64,000 bases of DNA from assembly GCF_000392615.1 (NCBI RefSeq), contig NZ_KB933398.1, forward strand, positions 3,757,204 through 3,821,203, in the 5' to 3' direction. The stretch comes from Lysinibacillus sphaericus OT4b.31 (GTDB lineage Bacteria; Bacillota; Bacilli; Bacillales_A; Planococcaceae). Under the pieces are notes generated by a model. The model was not told where the DNA came from. It was given only the letters and a program-made list of their open reading frames with translations, and made no database searches. The first letter of the stretch is position 1, and the number at the start of each line of letters is the position of its first letter. The translations under genes and the position numbers were made by a program. Below are positions 7,965 through 36,672 of this stretch, one piece after another.

Positions 7965-8265
7965 CAACAACACATTGTAGGCCTAGATTGGAAATAGTAG
8001 AGATGTCTGTGTACTTGTAGAGAACCGGTGGGTGGTGCAAACCGGGAGACACACATTTTGAACTCGTCCATGAGCTACTCCCTGAACTATAACTTCGCCA
8101 AAGCGTAGTGAATAAAGTAAGGGATGTCGGATTCCCCCGTTATAAGGATAGACAGTAATAGCTGTTGATAAGGGGACTTTTTCTGTAAAGAAAAAGTCAA
8201 TTAGAGTGGTACCGCGAGCAAAAACTCGTCTCTATATTTTTATATAGAGACGGGTTTTTTTATTT
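7965..8265 (+). promoter_or_regulatory. T-box: Leucine-type T-box riboswitch of leuA
   Basis: The leader carries the T-box core AGAGTGGTACCGCG at 8203-8216 and a terminator stem CGTCTCTATAT (8227-8237) / ATATAGAGACG (8242-8252) followed by T residues. The stem I distal part is around 8018-8045. In the usual specifier position GAACTCGTCC gives CTC (Leu) at 8063-8065, which matches the downstream gene. Uncharged tRNA-Leu would stabilise the antiterminator and allow leuA expression. The T-box call is firm; the specifier placement is by pattern only. Confidence 0.92.
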
Positions 8266-11768: not shown

Positions 11769-12020
11769 AAAAAAAACGCCCTAATCATTACTGATTAGGA
11801 CGAGTATACCCGTGTTACCACCTATATTTACAAATAGCTCAAACTATTTGCCTCAATCAGTACGTCCACATATGAGAGATACTGCTGCTGTTGTAACGAG
11901 TACCATCTCGTCGTAGCCTACTTGCCAAAGCTTTCGGTACGAAGCTCAAAGGTCATTTTCAAAAGGGTTCATTTACCTCATTTCCACCAGCAGAGGCTCT
12001 CTATTAAATGCTTGTCCAAT
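11769..12020 (-). promoter_or_regulatory. T-box: Methionine-type T-box riboswitch of metG
   Basis: On the minus strand the core AGGTGGTAACACGGG (11809-11823) is followed by a terminator, CGTCCTAATCA pairing with TGATTAGGGCG (11777-11802), and a T run. The stem I 5' part, AGAGAGCC with GGTGGAAATGAGG, is near 11970-12005. TTGAAAATGACC in the specifier position gives ATG at 11954-11956, matching a MetRS gene. The terminator ends about 100 bases before metG. Confidence 0.9.
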
Positions 12021-12058
12021 TTACTTTTCCTTCTCAACGCTTTTCTTAGATTGGCACC

Positions 12059-13166: not shown

Positions 13167-13589
13167 TTAATCAAAAAACTCCATATGCACTTTTTCTTTT
13201 TTATAGTATTGTAATCTATCCTGTAAAGTACCTGTATGAAATTCAAACTTATGACCATCTGGATCCGTAAAGTAAATGGATTTTTCATCCCTCACATCTC
13301 GCTGTCTACCTTCTAAAATATTGACATTATAATGCATTAGTTTCTCATACATTTTATCGAAATCTTCTTCAAGAATTGAAAATGCAATATGTGTATAGGA
13401 TTGATGAATCTCATTGCGCGGGATATCCTTCTCTACATTTAAAGCAAGCCACAGTCCATTCAGATCGAAATAAGCTGTGTTGCTACCTTTCACTAATAAT
13501 TTTGCATCGAAGACGTTTTTATAGAATGCTATGGAATTACCTAAATTAGAAACTGAAAATAAAAAATGATTGATGTTTTGTATCGTCAC
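13167..13589 (-). CDS. fosB: Metallothiol transferase FosB (fosfomycin resistance)
   Basis: A 140-residue VOC-fold enzyme that opens the fosfomycin epoxide with bacillithiol (or cysteine) using a divalent metal. His8, His67 (in SYTHIAF) and Glu116 (in [12 protein letters not shown]) occupy the metal-ligand positions of FosB. The segments [29 protein letters not shown] and LQDRLQYYK match the Bacillus family closely. Length is normal. Start is GTG at 13589 with AAGGAGTG seven bases before. Stands alone with its own terminator. bstA at 24 kb is another bacillithiol enzyme in the window. Confidence 0.95.
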
Positions 13590-13698: not shown

Positions 13699-14772
13699 TT
13701 ATTTCTTTTTTCCTTTCTTCAATCCTTTGGAAATTTTCTTCCATTTCCGCTGTTCGTTTAATCTTGCCTGTGTATTGGTTTTACGTTCCATAAATGCGAG
13801 TTCCCTCTGTAACTTGAAGTAGCTTTGTAAACGTGAGCTTTCAAGTGCCCCATCTATGATCGCTTGCTGAACTGCACAACCTGGCTCCTCTTGATGCATG
13901 CAATCTCGATAGTGACAAGCAGCAGATAGTTCTTCAATATCTTTAAAACTGGCAGAAAGACTATCTCCCTGATCCCATAATTGCAGCTCACGCATTCCTG
14001 GCGTATCAATTAAACAACCTCCATTTGGGAGTACAATTAACTCACGATGTGTCGTCGTATGGCGGCCTTTAGCATCGTCCTCGCGAATATCCGAAACTTT
14101 CATGAGTGTTTCGCCACTGAGTGCATTTGTCAATGTAGACTTCCCGGCCCCTGAAGAACCAAGTAATGCACCCGTTATCCCCTCAGTAAAAAGAGCACGA
14201 ATATCTGATAAGCCTTCCCCAGATAAAGCACTTGTCACAAAAATATCTACACCAAATGCGATAGCTTCGACCTCACGTAACATAATCTCGACGTCTTCAC
14301 ATAAGTCTGCCTTTGTCAGTACAATAATTGGCTTGGCGCCTGAGTCCCAGGCTGCTACTAAATAACGTTCTAAACGACGTAGATTAAAATCAGCATTTAA
14401 GCTCATTACAAGGAGTACAACATCGACATTTGAAGCTACAATTTGCTCCGTTATTTCTCGACCTGCAACCTTACGTGAAAAAACTGATTTTCGTTCAAAT
14501 AGTTTATGAATAATTGCCTTTTCTTCGCCAGCCATTTTCTCGACCAACACCCAATCTCCAACAGCTGGGAAGTCTTCTCGTGCTAGAGAAGTATATGCGA
14601 AATGCCCAGCAATCGTTGCTAGCCACTCTCCTTCTTCTGTCAATACACGATATGAGTGTTTATGCTCTAAAGTCACTCGCGCCGGGATACAGTTGGCTAA
14701 TTTCGACTCCTCTTTAAACGTCGTCATTTGCTCTTCAAAATATGTTGAAAATCCTAAAGTTGTTAAATTCAA
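13699..14772 (-). CDS. rsgA: RsgA-family ribosome-associated GTPase (paralogue)
   Basis: A 357-residue circularly permuted GTPase. An N-terminal OB-like domain is followed by G4 (LTKADL, about 152), then G1 (LGSSGAGKSTL, about 201) and G3 (DTPGM, about 256). A zinc-binding region CHYRDCMHQEEPGC is at about 284-297, and the C-terminal tail is very basic (KKISKGLKKGKKK). RsgA assists late 30S assembly. The usual housekeeping copy in Bacilli lies beside prkC/prpC; here no such genes are present, and the protein is longer, so I read it as a second copy. Its upstream region has an upstream ORF and a terminator (see the entries at 14881-15132), so its expression is probably conditional. Confidence 0.9.
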   Translation of the reverse strand: MNLTTLGFSTYFEEQMTTFKEESKLANCIPARVTLEHKHSYRVLTEEGEWLATIAGHFAYTSLAREDFPAVGDWVLVEKMAGEEKAIIHKLFERKSVFSRKVAGREITEQIVASNVDVVLLVMSLNADFNLRRLERYLVAAWDSGAKPIIVLTKADLCEDVEIMLREVEAIAFGVDIFVTSALSGEGLSDIRALFTEGITGALLGSSGAGKSTLTNALSGETLMKVSDIREDDAKGRHTTTHRELIVLPNGGCLIDTPGMRELQLWDQGDSLSASFKDIEELSAACHYRDCMHQEEPGCAVQQAIIDGALESSRLQSYFKLQRELAFMERKTNTQARLNEQRKWKKISKGLKKGKKK

Positions 14773-14880
14773 TTCGTTTTCCTCCTGATATATGCATGTT
14801 ATTTACGCTTCAGCATATTTGTGCACAAAACATCTATGCACTCACCGAAACTTTATCTTTATGCAGCATTTGATTTGCTG

Positions 14881-14926
14881 AAAAAATAAAAAACCTTGTA
14901 ACTGCAATTCGGCAGTTACAAGGTTT
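14881..14926 (-). terminator. Leader terminator upstream of the rsgA paralogue
   Basis: A 15-bp perfect stem, AAACCTTGTAACTGC with GCAGTTACAAGGTTT (14891-14905 and 14912-14926), six-base loop, then TTTTATTTTTT on the minus strand. It ends about 110 bases before the rsgA start codon and no gene end lies upstream, so it is a leader attenuator rather than a gene-end terminator. Confidence 0.85.
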
Positions 14927-14996
14927 CACAGCACGTTCAAGAGAATGTACAAGTAGCCTTATTTATGTAGAAGTTTAACTAGCTACTGAACAAGGT

Positions 14997-15071
14997 CTAA
15001 CATGTATATTTTAGGCGTGTGAAATTGAACAAACCGAATTGCAATTCGCTAAAAACAGATCTATTCATCAT
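14997..15071 (-). CDS. Leader peptide (upstream ORF) of the rsgA paralogue, 24 codons
   Basis: Minus-strand ORF beginning MMNRSVFSELQFGLFNF and ending in cysteine before TAG. The ribosome site AGGTGA (15078-15083) is six bases before the first ATG, and the ATG is about 26 bases after the predicted transcription start. It ends 71 bases before the terminator hairpin. The codons for Gln-Phe-Gly lie in a 10-base stretch (15034-15043) complementary to the loop and upper stem of the terminator. Layout and size resemble leader peptides that control antibiotic-inducible resistance genes. Peptide function is inferred from layout only; no homologue is known to me. Confidence 0.6.
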   Translation of the reverse strand: MMNRSVFSELQFGLFNFTRLKYTC

Positions 15072-15103
15072 GTCACATCACCTACTTCCATTTATTTGTT
15101 TCC

Positions 15104-15132
15104 AATATATCTAAATTTTGCGAAATTGTCAA
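15104..15132 (-). promoter_or_regulatory. Promoter of the rsgA leader RNA
   Basis: On the minus strand TTGACA (15127-15132), 17-base spacer, TATATT (15104-15109). Near-consensus; start expected around 15097, giving a leader of about 325 bases. Confidence 0.85.
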
Positions 15133-15209: not shown

Positions 15210-16292
15210 TTGTCGAAAATCGTTTCTATCAGTACATATCAACCACCTTACACATTACATCAAGCAAATGCTGAGGAGCTAACGAAAGAGCTTTTTCATA
15301 AAAAAGTCGCACGTTTAGAACGCTACTTAAAAGTCTTTGAAAGCGGTGGTATTGAGACACGCCATTTCTGTGTACCTGCCGAATGGCATCGTACCGAGCA
15401 TACTTTTGAAGAACGTAACAACTTATATATTGAGTTGGCAACAGCATACAGCGTTGACGTCATACAAGCCTGTTTACAAAACGAAGCGTTCTTAGCAACA
15501 CCGATTTGTCCTGAGGAAATCGATGCCATTATTTTTGTTAGTAGTACGGGCATTTCAACACCAAGTATTGATGCTCGAGTTATGAACCAACTTGCCTTTT
15601 CAGACAGACTAAAACGCATGCCACTTTGGGGACTTGGTTGTGCTGGTGGAGCAGCTGGTGTCAGTCGTGCCTATGATTTCTGTAAAGCACACCCTCAAGC
15701 AAAGGTACTTGTTGTTTGTGTCGAACTTTGCAGCTTAACCTTTCAACCAAACGACTTTTCAAAGAGTAATTTAATAGGTGCCTCTCTCTTTGCCGATGGT
15801 GCAGCATGTATTCTCGTTTGTGGAGATGACGTCACAATACCTACAAGAAAGCCGTCACCTTCCATACTCACAACTGGCTCTAAATGGATGCCAGATTCTG
15901 AAGATGTAATGGGCTGGAATATTAAAAACAATGGACTTCATGTCATTTTCCAGAAAAGTATCCCTGCTATTATTACGAACTGGCTTGGTCCATTTATTGA
16001 GCAATTCTTAGTAGAACAAGAGCTATACAGTGAACAGCTTGATCATTTCATTGCTCATCCTGGAGGTAAAAAAGTGCTGAAGGCCTATGAGGATGCATTG
16101 TATCTTGCGGAACAAAAAACCGACATTTCTCGGGAAATATTAAGACGTCATGGAAATATGTCATCCCCTACAGTGTTATATGTATTAGAGCAGTTTATGT
16201 TAAAAGAAGGTCAAGTAGATGATGTTGGTTTGCTCGTCGCTCTCGGTCCCGGCTTCTGTGCGGAAGCTGTATTACTTAAATGGAGGGAGTAG
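15210..16292 (+). CDS. bcsA: Type III polyketide synthase (chalcone synthase-like)
   Basis: A 360-residue homodimeric ketosynthase of the chalcone/stilbene synthase family, as in Bacillus BcsA/BpsA, which makes alkylpyrones from fatty acyl-CoA and malonyl-CoA. The catalytic triad is visible: Cys144 in WGLGCAGGAAG, His283 in IAHPGGKK and Asn316 in RRHGNMSSPT. Family length is normal. Start is TTG at 15210 with AAAGGAGA before it. The methyltransferase gene begins one base after the stop, so the two form an operon; in B. subtilis the partner methylates the pyrone. The exact product is inference. Confidence 0.92.
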   Translation: MSKIVSISTYQPPYTLHQANAEELTKELFHKKVARLERYLKVFESGGIETRHFCVPAEWHRTEHTFEERNNLYIELATAYSVDVIQACLQNEAFLATPICPEEIDAIIFVSSTGISTPSIDARVMNQLAFSDRLKRMPLWGLGCAGGAAGVSRAYDFCKAHPQAKVLVVCVELCSLTFQPNDFSKSNLIGASLFADGAACILVCGDDVTIPTRKPSPSILTTGSKWMPDSEDVMGWNIKNNGLHVIFQKSIPAIITNWLGPFIEQFLVEQELYSEQLDHFIAHPGGKKVLKAYEDALYLAEQKTDISREILRRHGNMSSPTVLYVLEQFMLKEGQVDDVGLLVALGPGFCAEAVLLKWRE

Positions 16293-36366: not shown

Positions 36367-36403
36367 AAAAAAATCCCTCCAATTTATTTTGGAAGGATTA
36401 GTC
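36367..36403 (-). terminator. Leader terminator of vmlR
   Basis: On the minus strand ATCCTTCCAA pairs with TTGGAGGGAT (36373-36398) followed by seven T. It lies about 20 bases before the vmlR start codon. The adjoining GACTAATCCT (36394-36403) overlaps the 5' arm and can pair instead with AGGATTAGTC at 36569-36578. Confidence 0.9.
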
Positions 36404-36660
36404 GCAAAAAACTGTACACAAATAAGCTATTTTTCATAGCTAGATGTGTTATCCTGTACTACAGTATGCTGAGACTCTCACTTCAAAACAGCGAATATGC
36501 ACATTCTTAAAGTGAAAAATAAACATACTTAAGTACCTGACTAAAGTTTATGTTATGGAAAACGGGCAGACTAATCCTATTTTTTAATTCAATGAAATTC
36601 TAAATTTCATGCATAAAAATAAGATTAGTTAATCATCGGCCACCCATCGTCCCTTCATTC
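36404..36660 (-). promoter_or_regulatory. Attenuation leader of vmlR
   Basis: Three leader segments compete. Segment 1, ACTAATCTTATTTTT near 36617-36629, can pair with segment 2, AAAAAATAGGATTAGT near 36571-36585. Segment 2 (AGGATTAGTC, 36569-36578) can pair with segment 3 (GACTAATCCT, 36394-36403), which is part of the terminator. Two tiny upstream ORFs, MGGR (36633-36647, after AAGGGACG) and the overlapping MIN, precede and enter segment 1. A ribosome stalled there would free segment 2 to block the terminator. This parallels the known control of vmlR by transcription attenuation. Confidence 0.75.
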
Positions 36661-36672
36661 GTAATTACAATA

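Follow-up and report, generated by a model that had tools for sequence, protein, structure and literature searches.

In the 64,000-nucleotide stretch of Lysinibacillus sphaericus DNA analysed here (the window), a second gene of the RsgA type, rsgA2, is preceded by a leader that probably acts as a ribosome-mediated transcription attenuator of the VmlR/HflXr type. It would be ON with ribosomes held at the start of a short upstream open reading frame (uORF), and a probability of roughly 0.78 is given to this reading. An earlier note on the same DNA, made from the sequence alone, had proposed a uORF-dependent attenuator, the antiterminator of which is built from the uORF and from the loop and upper stem of the terminator. 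This core of the proposal is upheld by conservation, covariation and controls, whereas a second interfering segment proposed with it is not.

Layout of the leader

The leader and its surroundings comprise the following features.

15104..15132, minus strand: sigma-A-type promoter TTGACA-17-TATATT, 11/12 consensus matches
~15097, minus strand: predicted start of the leader RNA
15073..15083, minus strand: segment A, the uORF ribosome site AGGTGATGTGA, partner 15022-15013
14997..15071, minus strand: uORF of 24 codons with a strong ribosome site, MMNRSVFSELQFGLFNFTRLKYTC and stop
15013..15044, minus strand: segment B, the 3' half of the uORF, partner either A (via 15022-15013) or C (within 15044-15014)
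14902..14935, minus strand: segment C, the 5' flank, 5' arm and loop of the terminator, partner either B (antiterminator) or, with the arm only, D (terminator)
14890..14927, minus strand: intrinsic terminator hairpin, 16 pairs by scan, T-rich tail to 14881; 5' arm 14927-14912, loop 14911-14906, 3' arm 14905-14890 (segment D)
13699..14772, minus strand: rsgA2, the putatively regulated rsgA paralogue, 357 aa, TTG start after AGGAGG
13167..13589, minus strand: fosfomycin-resistance gene of the fosM type, the next gene after rsgA2

The promoter at 15104-15132 and the 24-codon uORF with its ribosome site at 14997-15071 lie exactly where the earlier note had placed them, and the terminator, which it had put near 14881-14926 with 15 pairs, is present as well. 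On the minus strand, 117 nt separate this terminator from the TTG start of rsgA2. The 218-nt leader folds with -63.1 kcal/mol (z -5.3), which none of 200 shuffles reached, the terminator contributing to this value.

Here, four segments would compete with each other: A pairs with B, B with C, and C with D, the last of these leading to termination. Normal passage of ribosomes through the uORF would cover B, C:D would form and transcription would stop. With a ribosome detained on the start codon or the first codons, A would be occupied and B left free; we infer that B:C then prevents formation of the terminator in the cell, so that rsgA2 would be expressed, in Lysinibacillus perhaps along with fosM. 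The likely signal would be that initiation or early elongation is blocked, e.g., by ribosome-targeting drugs halting ribosomes at start codons, and the product of rsgA2, a second RsgA-type 30S GTPase, would then help the cell to cope.

The gene and its distribution

RsgA is a housekeeping 30S-maturation factor. The product of rsgA2 is placed by its sequence among the RsgA/YjeQ/CpgA GTPases, since it scores above the cut-offs of TIGR00157 (181.9 bits, cut-off 100) and of Pfam PF03193, RsgA_GTPase (183.7 bits, cut-off 30); it falls below those of the narrower NCBIfam models PRK12288 (180.4/360) and PRK12289 (126.1/483). It resembles solved RsgA/EngC chains in sequence and is a putative 30S-dependent GTPase. 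Another RsgA-type gene, 33% identical to rsgA2, is present elsewhere in the same genome, and rsgA2 is therefore a paralogue.

Within the genus, 30 of 32 Lysinibacillus genomes carry rsgA2 at >=81% identity, the remaining two (G012 and G026) having only a match of ~34%; among the matches listed, the closest named relative is that of L. parviboronicapiens (89%). At family level, matches with E <= 1e-60 were obtained in 206/250 genomes and 17/19 genera, and at class level, matches with E <= 1e-70 in 187/398 genomes and 65/145 genera, some more distant paralogues being counted in at both levels. The order-level search added little, because the genomes among its listed matches again belonged to the window's own family.

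Conservation of the leader

The leader in front of rsgA2 is no accident. Upstream DNA was compared for 64 family genes (56-75% identical, hand-picked among the listed matches to span genera), six Lysinibacillus second paralogues and 40 class genes, while the leaders L033-L082, 50 of the 80 loci of one relatives list, stand outside this comparison. An automatic search was used for uORFs of 12-35 codons with a ribosome-site energy of <= -11 kcal/mol within 420 nt upstream. All 64 family genes are preceded by a uORF with a strong ribosome site, 62 of them within the 420 nt searched automatically and two (L138, L148) farther upstream. For the class genes the same search gave 32/40; inspection by eye revealed that the calls for L186, L194, L217 and L219 are ORFs other than expected and that L184, L187, L210 and L212 may be misses due to the search criteria. 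In comparison, a uORF was called for only 4/139 control genes (3/59 in the window, 1/80 in flanks), and a uORF together with a terminator for 0/59 and 1/80, respectively. The six Lysinibacillus second paralogues, which are 43-49% identical, gave no leader by the automatic search.

The promoter is a recurrent part of the arrangement, too. Among 48 non-redundant leaders examined, of which 47 were scored, 43 have a promoter-like site with 9-12 matches, a level of 9 being reached by 8/48 shuffled leaders, and in 37/47 the best such site lies 30-35 nt before the uORF start. Aligning the leaders of relatives, as the earlier note had suggested, revealed that the ORF, the terminator and the main pairing are kept, whereas the peptide differs between genera and the second pairing occurs in only 2/42 leaders.

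Competing pairings

The main pairing had been proposed for 15034-15043 with 14903-14912, and the two segments, read as 15043-15034 (TGCAATTCGG) and 14912-14903, are indeed exact reverse complements. The real pairing is longer, lying within 15044-15014 and 14935-14902, and this B:C duplex amounts to -30.2 kcal/mol in the window. Additionally, the pairing of A with B (15083-15073 with 15022-15013) had been missed.

The second interfering segment, 14996-14990 (ACCTTGT), does repeat part of the 5' arm of the terminator, as had been noticed. Such a repeat is found in 2/42 related leaders, each tested against its own arm, and in 1/42 when repeats overlapping the stop codon are not counted. Its pairing with the 3' arm was therefore rejected as a regulatory one, and the repeat is probably incidental.

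In a swap test with 48 leaders, the uORF and its own terminator arm and loop gave a mean of -28.6 kcal/mol, compared to -17.3 kcal/mol when C was swapped among the leaders, and the own C was the best partner in 27/48. For A:B the own partner was best in 7/48 (-15.7 vs. -11.9 kcal/mol), which is weak evidence because ribosome sites resemble one another. At the 5% level, B:C beats synonymous recoding of the uORF in 34 and shuffling of C in 38 of 40 divergent leaders, a set from which 8 of the 48 had been removed by eye, five of these holding the five poorest ranks in the swap test and two the best rank. In the window, B:C was matched by 8/200 synonymous recodings and by 1/200 shuffles of C.

Covariation points in the same direction. 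A MAFFT alignment, not fitted to a structure, was made of 42 distinct leaders belonging to Lysinibacillus and to genera alignable with it. In it, 94.9% of the B:C cells are paired, while versions slid against each other reach at most 45.3%. Double-sided changes affect six pairs and 25 cells (shuffled mean 4.5), for example A-U to G-C in seven leaders and C-G to U-A in seven. The covariation score was reached by none of 500 shuffles, which retain relatedness; further pair types are unexceptional, being reached by 121/500. The alternative state, A:B plus C:D, is 89.3% paired in this alignment with double-sided changes in 13 pairs and 44 cells; the A:B helix on its own is paired in 95.2% of the cells, with such changes in 2/10 pairs. 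Judged from the sequences, an antiterminator made by the uORF, exclusive with the terminator, is conserved by covariation.

Position of the ribosome

The 40 divergent leaders, cut off after the terminator loop, were folded with each codon in turn covered by a mask of ribosome size. Masking codon 1 leaves 11-31 expected B:C pairs, and a mask at codons 1-4 leaves at least half of them in all 40 leaders. Beyond codon 7 (median; range 4-13) less than half remains for the first time, and at some position within codons 5-20 the mask reduces B:C to <=3 pairs in 38/40 and to <=1 pair in 34/40. Since early positions keep B:C and later codons remove it, a ribosome that stays at the beginning of the uORF leaves B free. 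The trigger of ribosome stalling, as envisaged by the earlier note, is hereby refined to ribosomes at the start or first codons; a fixed arrest peptide, in contrast, does not fit a peptide that differs between genera.

In the absence of a ribosome, B:C has more than four pairs at equilibrium in 34/40 leaders and 25.6 pairs in the window. With the mask at the stop codon, it is reduced to <=3 pairs in only 4/40, and in the window it is nearly complete (22.0 vs. 25.8 pairs). As B:C forms without a ribosome in most leaders, A:B alone does not secure the OFF state. This would rather rest on ribosomes travelling through the central codons of the uORF or on the co-transcriptional folding order, since B:C persists both without a ribosome and with one at the stop. 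A mutant of the uORF start codon might therefore give constant expression here.

This behaviour also suits a homeostatic sensor of the 30S subunit, in which the uORF would register the rate of initiation by 30S subunits: scarce mature 30S, or immature subunits resting on the ribosome site and failing to start, would leave B free and a 30S-maturation GTPase would be made, drugs being one trigger among others. Such a sensor is rather unlikely. In its favour, B:C forms ribosome-free in 34/40 leaders, the peptide varies freely between genera and the product is an RsgA-type GTPase. However, for L002, the second RsgA-type gene in this genome, the automatic search gave no leader of this kind, a result that concerns one gene, and the fosM neighbour suggests drugs rather than assembly. 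Formation of B:C without ribosomes in most leaders would likewise be expected if the terminator were governed by an RNA- or protein-binding antiterminator to which the uORF is irrelevant. The strong ribosome site and the open frame are conserved, though, and neither the window leader nor those of 20 relatives gave an Rfam match at the gathering threshold, which makes a binding antiterminator very improbable.

Also in favour of the attenuator read by ribosomes at the uORF start, the gene's own ribosome site responds in some more distant relatives. In 20 class leaders its accessibility was followed against ribosome position; in our judgement it changes clearly in six (L195, L199, L204, L215, L216, L221) and shows no clear change in the remaining 14. 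It is conceivable, with the odds against it, that RsgA paralogues of Bacilli are in general 30S-protection GTPases induced by drugs or initiation stress, the uORF reading 30S initiation directly and switching on a 30S-maturation GTPase for ribosome rescue, with control being transcriptional in some lineages and translational in others.

The peptide encoded by the uORF

Across the 42 aligned leaders, codons 1-22 of the uORF are without indels and codons 1-21 without stops, and the start codon is ATG everywhere but in L117, which has TTG. The two alternative frames are closed in 39/42 and 41/42 leaders. The pN/pS ratio of codons 2-9, which precede B, is 0.44 among the 28 rows from Lysinibacillus and 0.73 for the full set of 42; for codons 10-20 it is 1.00 and 0.52, respectively. 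These patterns suggest that the uORF is translated and its peptide weakly constrained. An arrest leader of the macrolide type was considered and rejected, the RLR motif occurring in 0/54 and a charged-x-charged motif in 1/54 non-redundant peptides within the first 12 residues.

In the uORFs of L009, L014, L139, L187, L195 and others, an in-frame x-ATT-G(T/C)N, encoding x-I-(V/A), is observed around codons 5-9. Here, a nascent chain carrying this motif could stall the ribosome on a drug or metabolite. The pattern [EA]I[VAI] occurs within the first 12 residues in 15/54 non-redundant peptides compared to 1.3 in shuffles, and the isoleucine codon is ATT in 28/30 motif matches. This isoleucine lies at most one codon from the last ON codon in 14/19; its position may track the ON/OFF boundary (p = 0.011 at a Spearman coefficient of 0.57), but permutation gave p = 0.057, so that it is regarded as a lead. 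Yet the motif is absent from the uORF of the window and the other listed Lysinibacillus uORFs, it was found post hoc with counts that include shared descent, and the ATT bias may reflect a constraint at RNA level. Arrest by the nascent chain is hence regarded as quite improbable.

A uORF followed by a terminator is also the classical layout of amino-acid attenuators of the trp/his type, which sense charged tRNA. Runs of three like residues are present in 4/40 peptides, but none of the 40 has a longer run, the peptides differ between genera and rsgA2 does not encode a biosynthetic enzyme. Control by charged tRNA is accordingly hardly to be expected at all.

Neighbours, plasmids and phages

The fosM gene possibly shares a transcript with rsgA2. 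In 39/61 loci overall, some genomes being present in both genus sets, the gene after rsgA2 is a co-directional one of the FosM type; these are 28/29 genus loci, 9/10 loci labelled Lysinibacillus and two plasmid loci. No such gene follows rsgA2 in L011, which is labelled L. fusiformis and 71% identical, and none was found beside rsgA2 of other genera in the fetched flanks, some of which are short. The gap between both genes is 10-20 nt in one subgroup, which suggests an operon there, and ~110 nt in the window.

Matches to rsgA2 were obtained in 139 plasmid records, three of which carry close relatives (80-90% identity), and in 27 phage records, all below 60% identity. Two of the three plasmid records are labelled Stenotrophomonas and are perhaps mislabelled or acquired. 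One of the labelled records, CP031730.1 (L236; Stenotrophomonas rhizophila plasmid), contains a Lysinibacillus-like PKS-leader-rsgA-fos segment, representing either a transfer or a mislabelled record. On plasmid pMGMM7 (NZ_CP130332.1; L234, L235), a match to the 5' part of the leader lies ~65 kb apart from rsgA-fosM, a natural break of the leader.

In the window, a divergent gene for a ketosynthase-III-like protein or type III PKS (15210-16292, plus strand) begins just past the rsgA2 promoter, and its relatives are so annotated in L234 and L236. Elsewhere in the window, two T-box leaders and one match to the sRNA ncr1575 are present (7975-8236, plus strand; 11793-12046 and 36367-36667, minus strand).

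Induction of rsgA2 by drugs is something we infer, the support being circumstantial, namely the fosM neighbour and the WblC-linked RsgA/EngC pair of Streptomyces. These two, like the break in pMGMM7 and the second leader class described below, are associations with a drug context only.

A second leader class

A further type of leader, unrelated to that of rsgA2, consists of a uORF of 9-11 codons (e.g., MATTYMVVWS), a hairpin, the near-invariant AGTAACCTTTCGTGAATA and another, terminator-like hairpin. It precedes distant RsgA paralogues (L178-L181, L032, L224-L227), and also genes for an APH-type kinase (L222, L229; L223 is alike by eye), a methyltransferase (L230) and a GNAT protein (L232). 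The exact AGTAACCTTTCGTGAATA motif is present in 6/299 class genomes and, with up to two mismatches, in 5/398 phylum genomes, among them L231 and L233 without such a leader. Five loci gave no match at gathering score in Rfam, two queries none on plasmids and one query none on phages. This class looks like a shared leader cassette of the drug type.

Comparison with known systems

Attenuators of this kind are already known from VmlR and HflXr; for their occurrence on rsgA, no description was found in open-licence PubMed Central, in agreement with the earlier note, which knew of no example. No paper there connected RsgA to attenuation and a leader peptide, or the GTPase RsgA to a uORF and the ribosome, and none dealt with upregulation of RsgA by tetracycline in Bacillus; the main text of the uORF4u paper does not mention RsgA.

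A second RsgA under ribosome-sensing attenuation, widespread in Bacilli, suggests that extra RsgA-like activity is needed when ribosomes fail to start. Therefore, a role in protecting the 30S subunit or initiating ribosomes is directly testable, and the leader may point to a so far overlooked protection from drugs that block ribosomes.

In Streptomyces coelicolor, a pair of RsgA/EngC paralogues is named among the WblC-activated genes and their paralogues in the context of tetracycline treatment; control is by a transcription factor, and the excerpts of that paper do not describe a uORF attenuator acting on the gene (PMC7157823). The toiL uORF of topAI senses several drug classes, tetracycline and retapamulin acting at the start codon, and the uORF of rsgA2 may be a comparable sensor. 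In contrast, it operates by translational unmasking and Rho without an intrinsic terminator, and its genes encode a toxin-antitoxin system, as far as the excerpted text goes (PMC12121999).

Similar in design is vmlR of Bacillus subtilis, where the uORF lies inside an anti-antiterminator, followed by antiterminator and terminator, plus a translational layer. It differs in encoding an ABC-F protein and in having a very short uORF (MIN), whereas in the rsgA2 leader the body of the uORF is itself the antiterminator strand (PMC9226507, in excerpt). Mutation of the uORF start codon prevents or nearly eliminates the expression of hflXr and vmlR, according to the excerpts of both papers (PMC6310831, PMC9226507).

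Likeness is also seen to hflXr of Listeria, again as described in the excerpted source (PMC6310831). There, a uORF combined with an anti-antiterminator, an antiterminator and a terminator controls a paralogue of a ribosome-associated GTPase, alongside another copy that is not involved in resistance. Its uORF has 14 codons with an RLR motif, and induction by lincomycin and erythromycin, through ribosome stalling, has been shown. Its product is HflX and not RsgA, RLR occurs within the first 12 residues in 0/54 of the uORF peptides analysed here, and induction of rsgA2 would follow by analogy. HflXr thereby provides the precedent of a ribosome GTPase turned resistance factor (PMC6310831).
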